From the NCBI GenBank assembly GCA_003645605.1, contig QNAY01000008.1, positions 1 to 12,063 on the forward strand: a DNA stretch of 12,063 bases, written 5' to 3'. The notes beneath the pieces were generated by a model that was given only the letters and a program-made list of their open reading frames with translations, did not search any database and was not told the DNA's origin. Origin of the DNA: Thermodesulfobacteriota bacterium. Lineage in GTDB: Bacteria; Desulfobacterota; Dissulfuribacteria; Dissulfuribacterales; UBA3076. Shown here in pieces: positions 5,078-11,847 of the stretch (positions are counted from its first letter, which is position 1; every line of letters begins with the position of its first letter). The position numbers were made by a program, and so were the translations under genes.

Positions 5078-5152
5078 GCCGGCATAGCTCAGTGGTAGAG
5101 CAGCTGATTCGTAATCAGCAGGTCTTCGGTTCAAGTCCGAATGCCGGCTCCA
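5078..5152 (+). tRNA. tRNA-Thr (anticodon CGT)
   Basis: The cloverleaf is complete. The acceptor arm GCCGGCA (5078-5084) pairs with TGCCGGC (5142-5148), the D arm is GCTC/GAGC, the anticodon stem GCTGA/TCAGC encloses loop TTCGTAA with anticodon CGT, and the T arm is TTCGG/CCGAA with loop TTCAAGT. The discriminator is T, and CCA is encoded (5150-5152). It reads ACG codons. It begins 22 bases after the histidine kinase stop codon. Confidence 0.95.
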
Positions 5153-5203
5153 AAAATCTGTGGTAGCATCAAGGCCTTTGCCTGTTTTCAATAGAACACA
5201 GAC

Positions 5204-5279
5204 GGGGATGTAGCTCAGTTGGGAGAGCGCCACGTTCGCAACGTGGAAGCCGGGGGTTCGAGTCCCCCCATCTCCACCA
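5204..5279 (+). tRNA. tRNA-Ala (anticodon CGC)
   Basis: The acceptor arm GGGGATG (5204-5210) pairs with CATCTCC (5269-5275) and includes the G3:U70 wobble that marks alanine tRNAs. The D arm is GCTC/GAGC, the anticodon stem CCACG/CGTGG encloses loop TTCGCAA with anticodon CGC, and the T arm is GGGGG/CCCCC with loop TTCGAGT. The discriminator is A, with encoded CCA (5277-5279). It reads GCG codons. It lies 51 bases after tRNA-Thr and is probably in the same transcript; a T run (5287-5292) follows. Confidence 0.95.
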
Positions 5280-5292
5280 CATTTCCTTTTTT

Positions 5293-5327
5293 AATTCAAA
5301 ATTCAAAATTTAGAATTCAAAATTGTG
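5293..5327. repeat. AATTCAAA-type tandem tract
   Basis: Units AATTCAAA (5293-5300), ATTCAAA (5301-5307), AATTTAG and AATTCAAA (5314-5321) follow each other with a 7-8 base period. The tract lies between tRNA-Ala and the 3' end of acpS and merges with the hairpin repeat at 5321. The last codons and the stop of acpS are inside it. Confidence 0.55.
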
Positions 5328-5734
5328 TATGAACGGCCTTTTCGTTCAGACACTAATTGGCCACTTATAATCACCACCGCAGTGGCATATTCTCCTTCAT
5401 GGGAAAGGCTGACATGCCAGTTGTTTGCTCCCAAGTCTGTTGCCTTCTTTAATGCAGAGCCGGAAAGGTGCAGCACAGGCTTTCCGGAAGGCTCATGGGC
5501 AATGGCCATCTGACGCCAGGTTACTCCGAGTCTCATGCCTGTACCCAGGGCCTTGGAGCATGCCTCCTTTGCTGCAAAACGGAGGGCAAGACCATGAGCC
5601 GGCTGTTTATGTTTCATACAGTAGGAGCATTCTTCACTGGTAAATACCCTGGATAAAAATTTCTCACCCCAACGGTTTACTGCCTTTTCAACCCTTGGGA
5701 TGTGAACCAGGTCAATTCCGAGGCCCAGGATCAT
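5303..5734 (-). CDS. acpS: holo-[acyl-carrier-protein] synthase
   Basis: AcpS transfers the 4'-phosphopantetheine group from coenzyme A to the conserved serine of carrier proteins. The N-terminal motif GLGIDLVHIPRVE (metal-binding Asp8) and the second motif RFAAKEACSKAL (Glu57, Lys60-equivalent region) are intact, and the C-terminal VSLSHEGEYATAVVI strand is present. The family core ends near residue 125. The last 17 residues here (QLVSERKGRSYTILNSKF region) are translated from a dispersed hairpin repeat and an AATTCAAA tract, so the tail is an acquired extension. The ATG lies four bases after the pdxJ stop; the pdxJ-acpS pairing is also found in E. coli. No strong ribosome binding site is seen, so coupling to pdxJ translation is likely. 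Confidence 0.93.
   Translation of the reverse strand: MILGLGIDLVHIPRVEKAVNRWGEKFLSRVFTSEECSYCMKHKQPAHGLALRFAAKEACSKALGTGMRLGVTWRQMAIAHEPSGKPVLHLSGSALKKATDLGANNWHVSLSHEGEYATAVVIISGQLVSERKGRSYTILNSKF
5321..5357 (-). repeat. dispersed hairpin repeat, copy 2, inside the acpS 3' end
   Basis: GTGTATGAACG (5325-5335) can pair with CGTTCAGACAC (5343-5353) at 10 of 11 positions around a 7-base loop. The block matches 2614-2650 at about 31 of 37 positions. On the - strand the hairpin is followed by an AT-rich stretch with several T runs, so it might also end the corA-acpS transcript, although it lies inside the coding sequence. Confidence 0.6.
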
Positions 5735-5738
5735 TAAA

Positions 5739-6467
5739 TTACTCTAAATAACCTTTTTGGACGAGAGAAAGCATCTCTCTTACGGCCCTCTCCATTCCAA
5801 CAAAAACGGCCCGGGCTACGACGGCATGCCCTATACTGAACTCCTGAATCTCACTCACTGCCGCAAGCCTTGCAGTATTGCGATAGTTAAGCCCGTGACC
5901 TGCGTGGACACGCAGACCTAAGTCCCTTGCTGCTCTTGCCATAGTTACTATTTGTTCGAATTCCTTGTCCTCAATATCCGGAGAAGGGGCATCTGCATAT
6001 AGTCCGGTATGGATCTCTATGCAATCTGCTCCTGTCTGTTTTGCAGCCTCAATCTGATCTTTCTCAGGATCAACAAAAAGACTCACTGGTATGCCTGCAT
6101 CGTGTATCCGGGTTACGGCCCTACTCAGGTGTTTCTCAAAATTTACAACATCCAGTCCCCCCTCTGTCGTGAGTTCTTCACGACCTTCCGGCACGAGGGT
6201 GACTATGTCTGGCTTTATCTCAGACGCTTTTTCTATCATTTCATCTGTCGCAGCCATTTCCAGGGTAAGCCTTGTTTTTACTGTCTGCCTGAGCAACTTA
6301 ACATCTCTGACCTGGATATGACGGCGATCTTCCCGCAGGTGGACGACAATACCGTCCGCGCCCGCGATCTCAACTATTCCCGCAGCCGTAACAGGGTCTG
6401 GTTCCGTGGTCCCCCTTGCCTGCCTGACTGTAGCTACATGGTCAACATTGATACAGAGATCCGCCAT
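5739..6467 (-). CDS. pdxJ: pyridoxine 5'-phosphate synthase (internal start)
   Basis: PdxJ condenses 1-deoxy-D-xylulose 5-phosphate with 3-amino-2-oxopropyl phosphate, the last ring-forming step of the DXP-dependent vitamin B6 pathway. The 242-residue product from ATG 6467 has the normal family length and a normal N-terminus ([20 protein letters not shown]). Active-site segments are intact: [16 protein letters not shown] (catalytic Glu region), [23 protein letters not shown] and the VHAGHGLNY segment near the C-terminus. AAGGAG lies six bases before the ATG, ideal for independent initiation, even though the frame is open upstream into ybeY. acpS follows after four bases. Confidence 0.9.
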
Positions 6468-6908
6468 TGTCTGCTCCTTATATAAAGCATTTAATAATGC
6501 CTGCTCTTTACGTGTCATACGTTCTGCTTCAACCGGGCCCAGTTCGTGATCTTCTCCCAGAAGATGAACAATACCATGCACCAATAACGCTTCAAGTCTT
6601 TGCTCCAGGTTCATGCCCGCATTCGCCGCCTCGCGTCTTGCAGTATCTATTGATATTACCACATCGCCAAGCAGATTATTCTCCTGTTGCGTAAAATCAT
6701 CTCCTTGCTGCCCGAAAGAAATAACATTGGTAGGGCAGGGCCTTTTCAACCAGAGTTTGTTGAGATGCGTCATCTCAGCATCATCTGCTAGAAGGATACT
6801 GAGCTCTGCATCAGGTCGTCCAATAGACCTTAAGAGTATTTCAGCCGCTCGTTTGAGGCGGAGAAGCGGCATGGATTTTGAGTGAGTTGATCTGATCAGG
6901 ACCGGCAC
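5739..6908 (-). CDS. ybeY-pdxJ: continuous YbeY-PdxJ reading frame (rRNA maturation RNase fused to PNP synthase)
   Basis: One 389-codon frame contains two complete proteins. Residues 1 to about 146 are YbeY, a zinc-dependent endoribonuclease for 16S rRNA 3'-end maturation and ribosome quality control. Its core PTNVISFG (59-66), LGDVVIS (80-86) and metal motif [11 protein letters not shown] (His111, His115, His121) are intact. Residues 148-389 are full-length PdxJ. No stop codon lies between them and there is almost no linker. The start is GTG at 6908, with GGAG eleven bases upstream. PdxJ keeps its own ribosome binding site and ATG at 6467, so the cell may make a fusion, free PdxJ, or both. 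A TAA in another frame sits exactly at 6480-6478, so a frameshift or base-call error near the ybeY end is the main alternative. Confidence 0.8.
6474..6479 (-). promoter_or_regulatory. pdxJ ribosome binding site inside the ybeY-pdxJ frame
   Basis: AAGGAG on the - strand lies six bases upstream of the pdxJ ATG (6467-6465). It is the strongest Shine-Dalgarno sequence in the ybeY-pdxJ-acpS stretch, and it argues that PdxJ is also translated separately. Confidence 0.8.
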
Positions 6909-6940: not shown

Positions 6941-6989
6941 TTCCCCCTTCAGCCTTTTACCTTCTACCTTCAACCTTCTACCTTCCTCC
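6941..6989. repeat. heptamer tandem tract, unit TTCTACC, spanning the phoH stop
   Basis: Seven consecutive 7-base units are in perfect register: 6941-6947, 6948-6954, 6955-6961, 6962-6968, 6969-6975, 6976-6982 and 6983-6989, each TTCNNCC or TTTTACC. On the - strand the tract reads as repeated GGTAGAA, encodes the last residues of PhoH (RKVEG), supplies its TGA, and continues into the phoH-ybeY gap. Confidence 0.75.
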
Positions 6990-7950
6990 CCTCTTCGTCC
7001 TCATAGGCCTGGATAATCCGTCGCACAAGCCTGTGCCTTACCACGTCCTGTTTGGAGAAATTGATAAAAGCTATGCCCTCTATGCCTTGCAGGATATCTC
7101 TGGCCTCAAGGAGACCTGATCCACGCTTTTCCGGAAGGTCAATCTGTGTAATATCTCCTGTAATTACGGCCTTTGAGTCGTAGCCCAACCTGGTAAGAAA
7201 CATCTTCATCTGTTCAGACGTGGTATTTTGGGCCTCATCCAGGATGGTAAAGGCATCATTCAAGGTCCTGCCCCGCATGAAGGCAAGCGGAGCGACTTCA
7301 ATAACTCCACGTTCCAATAGCCGCGAGACCTTTTCAAAAGTAAGCATGTCATACAGGGCGTCATAGAGCGGTCTCAGGTAAGGATTTACCTTTTCCGCAA
7401 GATCGCCAGGCAAGAAGCCAAGCTTTTCTCCGGCTTCAACAGCCGGCCTTGCCAGAATAATTCTGGCCACCTTTTCCTTGATAAGGGCTGAGACAGCCAT
7501 AGCCATGGCAAGATAGGTTTTGCCGGTCCCAGCAGGGCCTATTCCAAAAACTATGTCATTGGTCCGTATGGCCTCAACGTAAAGTTTCTGTGCAAGGCTC
7601 TTTGGCGTAATGAGCCTCTTCCCGGAATTTACGCTCAGCTTGTCAAGAAAGATGTCTTTGAGATGGGCCCGTGGATCTGAACTGAGAATTTGGATAGCAA
7701 ATTCCACGTCATTTGAATGGAGTGGGTAGTTTTGCTTGAGGAGTTCATAGAGCTGGGAACATGTGCGACTCGCAAGGTCGACTCCTATAGGATCACCGGT
7801 GATGGTAATCTGGTTTCCTTTGACGTGTATAGTAACCTTTAGAAAATCTTCGATGACCTTGAGGTTTCTTCCCTGTTCTCCATAAAGGCTTAAAGCAGGT
7901 GAATTGTCATCAAAGTATAATTGCTGTTGCTGATTGGAAACTTTTTTCAT
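6970..7950 (-). CDS. phoH: PhoH-like ATPase (YbeZ family)
   Basis: This is a 326-residue P-loop ATPase of the PhoH/YbeZ family, cytoplasmic and associated with RNA metabolism and YbeY function. An N-terminal KH-like region (about 15-75) precedes the PhoH domain (about 112-315). Walker A is GPAGTGKT (138-145) and Walker B is FTILDEAQN (234-242), with the family segments [16 protein letters not shown] (167-182) and [11 protein letters not shown] (263-273). The ATG overlaps the stop of the upstream ARMT1-like gene as ATGA, with GGGGA just before it, so translation is probably coupled. The C-terminus ends inside a heptamer repeat. The phoH-ybeY adjacency is widespread in bacteria, as in E. coli ybeZ-ybeY. 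Confidence 0.95.
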
Positions 7951-9695
7951 ATATCCCCAAGTGCCCTGTCATACAATTTCCCCACACCATATTCCTTTCT
8001 CCTCAGAAATTTCTCCCATGGCGGGCCTATGATCTGCATCTCAGGGTGTTCCTTTTGGACTTCAAGTGCTATCTTCATCTCCATTGTACAACCGGTGCTG
8101 TAGGTGGCGTCTTTTCCTATCCACTCGGGCGGTATTTTTTCATCCATAAGTTCAAAGGCATTTTCAATATCGTCTACTGTCTGGAACCTCCACATGTCTA
8201 TCAGCCCGCTCCTCTGTACAATCTCCCACATATACATTATATCATCGGCATCCATGCCCGGCTCGAAGTGTTCCGCCGGGTTTATCACTACCACCCCCTC
8301 CTGTCTTTTACGAAGGTAATCCACAAATACGTTTAGTATCTTCTTCGCGGTCTCCAACTGATGCGGTATGCTCCCCACAATAGCGCTGTAGAACAGGATC
8401 TTCTTACCTTGATTCTTTTTTATTTTCAGATCAATGACCAGAGCTTTGGCCTTGGCCCTCAGGGCTGCCTCTGAAAAACGTATGACCTTTGGATGACGCA
8501 GTTTCTCCCTGAGCGTGAGTTTGCCGGGTTTTTGACAAACCATGGACAGGGCGTCTCTAGTGAACTGGAAGCGTGATTTAATAAAGCAATCGGCATCTTC
8601 AGCACTGCGACTGATTACCGCGTCAGCTTCTTTGAAGGCCCTGGCAAATGTTACTGACGTAAGAAGTGGATTAAAGTGCTCTTGGGTCCCATCTGAGATA
8701 ACATATAATGTTTTATCGCTTTTAAGTTCTTCCAAAAGTTCTTTTTTCGAGATGTTTGGATTAGCGACAATCTCCGCCCCTGACAGCATCTCCTGGAGAT
8801 AAGGGTCTTCGAGTACGTCATTTAATGTGATTGCATCATAGTAGAAGGCCTTTTTGACAGATAATATGACGTTGATCCCCATACGGATCAAGATCCGTAT
8901 CATGGCAAGATCAAGCAGTATCTCACCGGCAGAGACTCCCATCCATAACAGATACCGTCTTTCCCCGGAATGGATCCATTTTTGGAGTGTATTTTTCAGC
9001 CATATCCAGCCTGGACCTTCTATCGGGGCCTTCATCATAGAACGGAGTGTGTCTGATGTGACTTGTTTTTCACTGGTCCAAAGCTCCGAGTAGCCGGACA
9101 AGGCTATGAGACGGCGAATTTGCAAGAGGTGTATCCCAAAGTTTACCTCGTTCAGAGGGGTGTCTTCCCGCAATTCCAGCCCTTTGGGGTCATTGAAGGC
9201 CTCCTTAAAGTCCTCTGACGTAAGGAGTTCACATATTCTGCGATTTTTGGTTTCCTTGATTTGGGCCAGCGGGCGATCAATTTCGCTGACCCGGATGAAT
9301 ATCTGGAGCAGCCTTTTTTCAAGTCTTAATGGGAGCATCACCAGCGAGGCGGTCTCACGCCTGAATTTCATTCCCAGAAGGCTGAGCAGAAACTTTTGCT
9401 TGTAGGTATCTTTCACCACCGAGCGTACAAGCGGTTCGACACGTTCCCACACCTTTATATAGGCAAAAGTAAGGAGATCTCCCCCCTTTTTTTCTATGAT
9501 AGTCTTGAAGATTTTATCAGAACAAGGGTAGTAGAAAGGCTCTTCATCCAATAATACCATAAACCTCAACTGCTCTGGTGAAGCGACTTCCTGGGGAAAT
9601 ACTTCGTAGGCAAGGTGGTTCTCAGTATAGAAATTCGCAATCCAGGCGTCTTTTTCAGGATCTAAACCAGAAAAGGACTCATAGGTACGGTCCAT
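7947..9695 (-). CDS. ARMT1/DUF89-like protein with altered metal site
   Basis: This is a 582-residue soluble protein. The central part (about 245-375) resembles the ARMT1-like DUF89 fold of metal-dependent phosphatases: [16 protein letters not shown] (247-262), an alternating strand and helix with YYDAIT (285-290), YVISDGT (331-337) and [13 protein letters not shown] (357-369). The Asp-Asn pair that normally starts the DNAGE motif is Val-Ser (253-254 region), so the usual metal ligands are missing there. The N-terminal 240 residues are mostly helical. The C-terminal 150 residues hold an unassigned segment with [12 protein letters not shown] (532-543). The start ATG is 16 bases from AAGGAGG, which is long. 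It is coupled to phoH through ATGA. The family assignment is from remembered motifs; the function is unknown. Confidence 0.55.
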
Positions 9696-10795: not shown

Positions 10796-11368
10796 CTACC
10801 GATGTTGAGCTTCTGCTTTGTCCGTCGTTTCATCGACATCAGGCAACCGGTATCGCCGTTGATCAAACCACCAACCGATCACAGCAGAAAAAAGCACGAC
10901 AAGCGGCAAGGAAACGGCAAAACGAATGCAGGTGAAACGCCACCCAAGAAATGAGGCCTCGAAGAGCGTCATGGGCACTCGGCAGATTCCTGCCGCAGAC
11001 AGGAAAGCGAGAACAACGCTTAGATTTGCTCGTTTCACATATAGGGCATGGGCGACCGGGAGTACGACCTGGAGACCACCGACCGTTGTTCCTGCCAGCA
11101 GAACTGCCCATACATAGGATAGGAGGCCTGAGCCGTGGCCAAGGTGCTTTTCAACGGTCTCTGTCTTGATCCAAACATCGAATAGTCCGACCAGTATGAA
11201 AACGCAGGGCAGAACTCTGAGCATCTGCCCAAGAAATGACAGGAAGTTCCGTCCGATCGCTTCTCCCGGCGCGAATCCTGTGTGCAGGGAGCCGAGCATG
11301 AAGATGCTGAATAGCGCGCCGACTCCCACAGTCCATGGATGCTGCTTTAATATCTTCACGACCTTCAC
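10796..11368 (-). CDS. permease second half (YraQ/DUF318-like)
   Basis: This is a 190-residue membrane protein with segments near 12-30, 44-66, 83-105, 113-133 and 148-168, and a hydrophilic tail. The start chosen is GTG at 11368, because GTGA overlaps the stop of the upstream half and GGAG lies seven bases before it. The frame stays open upstream to 11641, but that part is hydrophilic, lies over the other gene and makes no sense as protein. The segment TTVGGLQVVLPVAHALYVKR and the later E..FLGWRF...R match the position and pattern of the upstream half, so the two look like the duplicated halves of a predicted YraQ/DUF318 permease. The substrate is unknown; some relatives act in arsenic or thiol export. 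Confidence 0.7.
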   Translation of the reverse strand: MKVVKILKQHPWTVGVGALFSIFMLGSLHTGFAPGEAIGRNFLSFLGQMLRVLPCVFILVGLFDVWIKTETVEKHLGHGSGLLSYVWAVLLAGTTVGGLQVVLPVAHALYVKRANLSVVLAFLSAAGICRVPMTLFEASFLGWRFTCIRFAVSLPLVVLFSAVIGWWFDQRRYRLPDVDETTDKAEAQHR

Positions 11369-11847
11369 TGCAACTCTCCAAAAAAGAGACCCGTGGCTAT
11401 TGCCACTACAGTTGCTATTATGAAACTGACGACGTTTCGACAGAGAGCCAACCGGGTGCCAAGATACGTCCTCTCCATAGGAAAAGTCGCCACCCCAACC
11501 ATCATCAGCGTTGTAGAGAAGGCAGAAAGAACCATGTACAGTGCCCCCCGATCGAGCAAGATGCCGCATAGAGGGAAGGCTATGAATCCCGGCATGATCG
11601 ACACGGAGCCGAACCCAAGCGCGCTTCCCATGGCTATCCATTTGTTCTCGCGAGCCAGCACCTGCACCAGCACGTGGTCCGGGACGAGATAGAGGGCCAC
11701 GGCAACCATCATGAGCATGCAGAGGAATGCCGGGGCGATTCTCAAGAATCGGCGAAGCGCGATCTGGAGGGCGCGTCCGGTCTTGCGGGGACTCGCCAAG
11801 AGCGAAAGGCCCAAGAGCAATACCGTGATGATATAGAGAATCAGCAT
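11365..11847 (-). CDS. permease first half (YraQ/DUF318-like)
   Basis: This is a 160-residue membrane protein with segments near 2-18, 36-55, 72-97, 101-121 and 137-157. The core SVSIMPGFIAFPLCGILLDR (81-100), followed by FPMERTYLGTRLALCR, parallels the second half encoded directly downstream. It probably assembles with that half into a full permease of about 350 residues, the usual length of the single-chain family. Coding GC is high (about 58-63% on lines counted by eye) compared with the rest of the window, which could mean a different origin. The ATG at 11847 has only a weak GGAA upstream. A frameshifted single gene is the alternative, but the overlap with its own Shine-Dalgarno sequence favours two real genes. 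Confidence 0.7.
   Translation of the reverse strand: MLILYIITVLLLGLSLLASPRKTGRALQIALRRFLRIAPAFLCMLMMVAVALYLVPDHVLVQVLARENKWIAMGSALGFGSVSIMPGFIAFPLCGILLDRGALYMVLSAFSTTLMMVGVATFPMERTYLGTRLALCRNVVSFIIATVVAIATGLFFGELQ

Follow-up and report, generated by a model that had tools for sequence, protein, structure and literature searches.

On the minus strand of the window analysed here, which comprises 12,063 nucleotides (positions 1 to 12,063 of contig QNAY01000008.1, assembly GCA_003645605.1) from a Thermodesulfobacteriota bacterium of the order Dissulfuribacterales, the coding sequence of YbeY continues into that of PdxJ without an intervening stop codon. This raises the questions of whether the locus is a genuine fused gene or two genes joined by an error, and whether it is expressed as one protein or as two.

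Layout of the fused frame

The fused gene is located between phoH and acpS, and comprises the following features:

6970..7950, minus strand: phoH (Pfam PF02562), upstream neighbour of the fused gene
5739..6908, minus strand: single YbeY-PdxJ open frame of 389 codons (389 aa), with a GTG start, read from 6908 to 5739
6480..6884, minus strand: YbeY domain (TIGR00043), residues 9-143
6546..6578, minus strand: YbeY zinc motif HxxxHxxxxxH (His111, His115 and His121), located from the aligned rows
6478..6480, minus strand: out-of-frame TAA, one frame away and not conserved
6474..6479, minus strand: internal Shine-Dalgarno (SD) sequence AAGGAG, assigned from the sequence, its conservation and codon skew
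6465..6467, minus strand: ATG as putative internal start of PdxJ (in frame, Met148 of the fusion), a start codon being kept here in 74/74 fused genes
5739..6467, minus strand: predicted free PdxJ, 242 aa, 26.6 kDa
5763..6458, minus strand: PdxJ domain (Pfam PF03740), residues 151-382
5303..5734, minus strand: acpS (Pfam PF01648, TIGR00516), downstream neighbour of the fused gene

An initial annotation, made from the window alone, had described complete YbeY and PdxJ in one frame, meeting at the normal end of YbeY with an almost absent linker. Both proteins are indeed complete within the 389 aa and score above the curated cut-off values. The YbeY portion matches PF02130 over residues 31-141 (94.7 bits; cut-off 25) and TIGR00043 over residues 9-143 (108.9 bits; cut-off 45), and the PdxJ portion matches PF03740 over residues 151-382 (325.5 bits; cut-off 24.5) and NF003625 over residues 148-385 (355.6 bits; cut-off 190). 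As the YbeY match stops at residue 143 and free PdxJ would start at residue 148, the linker amounts to approximately 4 residues. The coordinates, zinc motif, AAGGAG, in-frame ATG (six bases beyond the AAGGAG) and TAA (6480-6478) of that annotation were all correct, and its estimates of about 43 and 26 kDa agree with the computed masses of 43.0 kDa for the fusion and 26.6 kDa for free PdxJ.

The three histidines of the zinc motif occur in 94/97 aligned rows, with the remaining three rows lacking YbeY. Where chain 1xm5 has residue 59 (E. coli YbeY Arg59, presumably a functional residue), the window protein has leucine (Leu54) rather than arginine. This position is occupied by L, F and R in 41, 19 and 15 of the 75 fused rows, respectively, and by R in 11 of the 19 unfused rows with YbeY; G134 (L121) is included in these residue counts and in those of the zinc motif. 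Since the arginine is also missing from 8/19 unfused YbeY rows, its loss was not treated as excluding membership of the YbeY family. Alignment to 1m5w indicates that the PdxJ portion retains all of the E. coli residues N9, H12, R20, H45, R47, H52, E72 and H193, which we take to be the active-site residues.

Several other features of the window lie near this locus or further upstream. A 582-aa protein is encoded beside phoH (7947-9695, minus strand), with a sub-threshold match only to an ARMT1-like domain, and tRNA-Thr(CGT) and tRNA-Ala(CGC) are located just past acpS on the opposite strand (5078-5279, plus strand). Two overlapping frames at 10796-11847 (minus strand), one matching the ArsP_1 permease family and the other without a family match, could represent paired half-permeases or a frameshift.

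Distribution of the fused gene

Among the 46 genomes of the Dissulfuribacterales, 41 contain a match to the fused gene, the window's own included, and in all 41 it forms one stop-free frame. No second match was found in these 41 genomes, and neither ybeY nor pdxJ was found in the other five. The frame of G018 ends at the end of its contig, after the first 92 PdxJ residues. Furthermore, the fusion is carried by at least 50 of 395 genomes sampled from the phylum, 17 of them from the order and 33 from outside it, with each of the latter checked as a single stop-free frame in the DNA; this number is a lower bound. G134, which has unknown bases at the join, is not included in it. The 33 include Thermodesulfobacterium sp. 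TA1, T. commune, T. hydrogeniphilum, Thermodesulfatator indicus and T. autotrophicus, and database entries add fused proteins from T. atlanticus, Caldimicrobium thiodismutans and Desulfurivibrio dismutans. Both Pfam domains were present in 58/58 and 78/78 matches of two database searches and in 119 of the 120 matches listed, out of 357, in a third. A Dissulfuribacterales bacterium database protein shares 81 % identity with the window protein over the YbeY part, and the name given here to the order of the 46 genomes rests on this protein.

The single YbeY-PdxJ frame is thus real, and the product of neither chance nor an indel. The possibility, to which the initial annotation drew attention, that a one-base sequencing or assembly error hides the ybeY stop, and with it two ordinary genes, draws on the TAA one frame away at the SD sequence, but its probability is practically nil, as relatives share the same frame (41/41 matching genomes of the order, the 40 others at 58-91 % identity to the window's gene) and other families also have the fusion, in genomes that are named or consist of a single contig. 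The TAA itself is incidental. The sequence TAAGG lies shortly ahead of the PdxJ start in only 9/41 fused genes of the order (11/74 of the non-redundant fused genes overall), and its interpretation as a programmed signal was rejected on the basis of this poor conservation.

Two further candidates were not retained. The 1337-aa open frame of G012, an apparent triple fusion, owes its upstream part, judged by eye, to an Arg/Gly/Pro-rich reading of GC-rich DNA. The candidate fusion of G051 (open frame 463; L171) has YbeY and PdxJ in register, but separated by a stop codon, and is hence unfused, an arrangement also found in L172 (G088) and L176 (G291).

Origins of the fusion

A tree of joined YbeY and PdxJ sequences (92 rows, junction columns removed, leaving out L121, L164 and L167-L169) requires three changes between the fused and separate states, and a topology uniting the 73 fused rows in a single clade was rejected (AU p = 0.00018). 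A second tree, built from PdxJ alone (174 rows, other phyla among them), requires four state changes, all of which are forced by well-supported branches. These four changes are best read as three fusions and one later split, both trees being quick ones with which other mixtures of gain and loss are possible. The ybeY stop codon was lost in at least two lineages, and most likely in three. The fusions are best assigned to Thermodesulfobacterium and its kin (families f39, f72 and f97), to family f20, and to a group made up of the window's order and families f25, f83 and f105. The separate ybeY and pdxJ genes of L118 (G335, family f71) are nested within a fused clade and represent a possible secondary split. 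The zinc motif and the beginning of the NVDH motif match in PdxJ are 40 residues apart in the measured genes of the window's order and 42-43 apart in families f25, f83 and f105; three f20 genes have 46 residues here, and the Thermodesulfobacterium group has 51-56.

In eight unfused rows (L034, L128, L129, L134, L135, L139, L143 and L149; seven distinct, with L034 and L128 identical in the tree), the 3' end of ybeY contains the SD sequence of pdxJ, and its stop codon is found between this SD sequence and the pdxJ start, in frame with the latter. They likely display the ancestral arrangement, from which loss of one stop codon would yield the fused form.

Nucleotide-level signs of an internal PdxJ start

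The junction was compared across 74 non-redundant fused genes, comprising the 78 fused among 100 loci examined less three duplicates and G134, which has N in the junction and was also excluded from the trees. These genes are related by descent, such that the counts below are not independent events or trials. A start codon is present at the PdxJ position in 74/74 genes, 73 being ATG and one GTG; in the latter the residue has changed (Val), yet the start codon is retained. An SD match of 4-8 bases is located 5-10 nt upstream in 74/74 genes. The mean SD duplex energy at these internal starts is -10.2 kcal/mol (n=74), whereas other ATGs of these genes average -3.9 kcal/mol in frame (n=600) and -4.1 kcal/mol out of frame (n=948). 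Among the other in-frame ATGs, 2.3 % reach the median value of the internal starts, and 18.5 % match the weakest one (-6.0, two genes). All were scored against the E. coli 16S tail as anti-SD; the matching 16S 3' end, with CCTCCTT, was found in 8/46 genomes of the order, with that of the window not among them.

Synonymous resampling, in which residues were fixed and codons drawn according to each gene's own usage, gave a mean SD energy of -5.4 kcal/mol against the real -10.2. At most 10 % of resamples were as strong as the real sequence in 33/74 genes, compared to 4/148 control sites; only 13/74 genes reach a value of 5 % or less, and three of the 74 exceed 50 %. The synonymous preference is concentrated in two codons upstream of the start. 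At codon -12, lysine is encoded by AAG in 23/23 cases (10.6 expected, judging by codon use elsewhere in the genes) and arginine by AGG in 43/43 (10.4 expected), and at codon -9 glutamate is encoded by GAG in 31/33 cases (16.8 expected) and arginine by AGG in 23/29 (8.0 expected). Clear synonymous skew is absent at codon -6 of the fused genes, and at codon -15, which lies outside the SD core, it is absent for Glu and Lys, with Arg encoded by AGG in 4/5 cases (0.8 expected). Each of the three codon phases is represented among the SD cores (2, 30 and 42 genes), which encode differing residues (KE, RR, RE, ME, GG and others), and it is therefore the nucleotides rather than the residues that are conserved.

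Local mRNA folding between -30 and +30 is weaker than in other windows of the same gene in 68/74 cases. The internal SD sequence is stronger than that of ybeY itself in 54/60 pairs and not stronger in six, where ybeY starts were assigned by position and the 14/74 genes without a candidate start in range were left out. True N-termini usually have Ala, Pro or Thr after the start, and one of these is the penultimate PdxJ residue in 70/74 genes. Selection seems to maintain the internal PdxJ start, given the conservation of the start and SD sequence, the skewed codons of the latter and the weak folding of the site.

A separate observation concerns the database protein P0028, a fused protein with Leu in place of Met at the PdxJ start, in which the equivalents of R20 and H193 are also substituted.

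Products of the fused gene

The initial annotation had proposed that the gene gives both a fusion and free PdxJ. Given the comparative signs in 74 genes, this is the best-supported reading, and most likely a 43 kDa YbeY-PdxJ fusion and a free 26.6 kDa PdxJ are both made from this one gene. In the ancestral state, ybeY and pdxJ would have been neighbours, with the pdxJ SD sequence within the 3' end of ybeY. Following loss of the ybeY stop codon, ribosomes starting at ybeY would read through to produce the fusion, and the internal ribosome-binding site of pdxJ, retained by selection, would permit a second initiation yielding the free enzyme. As the internal site is usually the stronger of the two, free PdxJ probably outnumbers the fusion. 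PdxJ is described as forming octamers (PMC6253932; PMC10471632), which are tetramers of dimers, and free and fused subunits may thus share mixed octamers to which few YbeY domains are attached.

The same two products would be expected if the join were of no use, with the loss of the stop codon neutral, YbeY tolerating a partner at its C-terminus and PdxJ production relying on the internal start. This has close to an even chance of being correct: the internal site is the stronger in most pairs, a single stop codon can be all that distinguishes the unfused state, and ybeY often adjoins pdxJ without a known reason (PMC10582724). Neutrality is less readily reconciled with the maintenance of the frame in all 41 genomes of the order showing the gene and its recurrence in other families; one nested split (L118) was observed. 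The neutral join shares the two-product mechanism with the preferred explanation and differs from it only on benefit, and the confidences placed in the two overlap. The link between rRNA processing and vitamin B6 synthesis that the initial annotation saw in the join would be a hypothetical one in functional terms; the two genes commonly adjoin each other, and their fusion can result from the loss of a single stop.

Intragenic SD-like sequences may slow ribosomes. The internal SD sequence could then be a translational pause that allows YbeY to fold before PdxJ, or else a relic, with the gene always making a single chain. We consider this unlikely, since a pause requires neither a start codon nor weak folding, whereas the start codon is kept (once as GTG), the SD spacing is 5-10 nt and mRNA folding is reduced. 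The Ala, Pro or Thr after the start also speaks against a single chain, although these residues were possibly inherited.

Separate working YbeY and PdxJ could also be obtained by cleavage of the fusion, or by a ribosomal frameshift that ends YbeY. Stops in one other frame are somewhat enriched just before the PdxJ start (1.05 versus 0.67 per 30 nt elsewhere), with at least one in 50/74 genes, but the remaining frame has no excess (0.43 versus 0.56; 30/74 genes), and the TAA at the SD sequence is restricted to just 9/41 genes of the order. The junction residues vary between genes, with no common cleavage or slip site apparent by eye, and a stop codon would achieve the same more simply. This route is rated a little below even the single chain, and its frameshift variant is supported weakly at most.

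PdxJ in a sister genus

Two fused genes belong to a sister genus, g3:

525-1685: fused gene L009 (G010), g3 member
1501-2658: fused gene L029 (G009), g3 member

In both, the PdxJ portion no longer has the equivalents of E. coli R20 and R47, presumably substrate-site residues, and L029 has also lost those of N9 and H12. Seven database proteins (P0019-P0022 and P0024-P0026) likewise lack both arginines; P0019 is G010's own protein and P0026 carries the motif of L029. The dN/dS between L009 and L029, for one pair and by a simple method, is 0.37 for PdxJ versus 0.02-0.14 in 11 of 13 comparison pairs (unsaturated), and 0.26 for YbeY versus 0.09-0.24 in eight unsaturated pairs. With the YbeY value also slightly raised, relaxation may not be confined to PdxJ.

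A pdxS-pdxT pair is encoded in G009 (L181, 4242-5738, G009:C99), the only one of the 46 genomes of the order with a full-length PdxS; the PdxS search reached E 0.001 in 4/46 genomes, three by weak partial matches. Contamination as the source of this pair is unsupported, as this contig carries a birA gene with 74 % identity to its G010 counterpart and 63-66 % to those of three genomes of the window's genus. PdxA was found in 42/46 genomes of the order, G009 included, and in G010 (an 89 % complete genome) neither PdxA nor PdxS was found.

PdxJ catalysis thus seems relaxed in g3, judging from its substituted residues and substitution rates. The single frame and internal start persist, which would fit either a structural role or a loss that is simply recent. 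It is conceivable, with a small chance of proving correct, that the PdxJ ring, diluted by internally started subunits, would serve as a platform for a limited number of YbeY domains and be kept even where it is no longer required for vitamin B6 synthesis.

Relation to known systems

A fusion of YbeY to another partner has been described, as YbeY-Era fusions are reported from some Clostridia, Selenomonadales and Thermoleophilum (PMC10582724). There, N-terminal YbeY is likewise joined to the product of a usual neighbour gene, but Era is a ribosome-assembly partner of YbeY, whereas PdxJ is a metabolic enzyme. The available portion of that paper does not mention an internal start for Era, and describes pdxJ as a frequent satellite of ybeY, the reason being unknown; in the accessible text of PMC1360075 ybeY and pdxJ are mentioned apart. 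Internal in-frame starts are established for cas8b/Cas11b and cas10/Cas11 (PMC11899642). As with the fused gene, one gene gives two proteins and an internal start frees the C-terminal part as a subunit, and the authors of that study infer that the internal start is used more often than the gene's own. Cas11 differs in being a subunit within one larger protein of one complex, whereas YbeY and PdxJ are two unrelated, complete housekeeping proteins. Internal initiation is furthermore demonstrated for Cas11, and is what we infer for YbeY-PdxJ.

N-terminal proteoform pairs usually differ by an N-terminal stretch and not by a whole second enzyme. Salmonella pairs from alternative in-frame starts, as described in PMC11005335, resemble the present case in that two proteins arise per gene by way of in-frame starts. 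In UniProt, the 'Multifunctional fusion protein' of Thermodesulfobacterium commune and Caldimicrobium thiodismutans is the same two-domain protein, named by automatic annotation, and this name is silent on the internal start and the repeated origin. The NCBI and JGI names seen give the PdxJ half only. A literature search, with most subscription papers outside its scope, found no paper reporting a YbeY-PdxJ fusion.

Significance

YbeY-PdxJ combines two features of known kinds, the fusion of domains and an internal start retained by selection. It would represent a natural case of the fusion of neighbour genes in which the stop codon has been lost and the ribosome-binding site of the second gene is still under selection. 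A protein annotated as 'fused' need not be produced in the fused form alone; most of the database names seen cover a single half, and the internal start appears in none of them. The repeated joining of YbeY, which acts in ribosome maturation, to PdxJ, an enzyme of vitamin B6 synthesis, sharpens the question, posed in PMC10582724, of why metabolic genes such as pdxJ adjoin era and ybeY.
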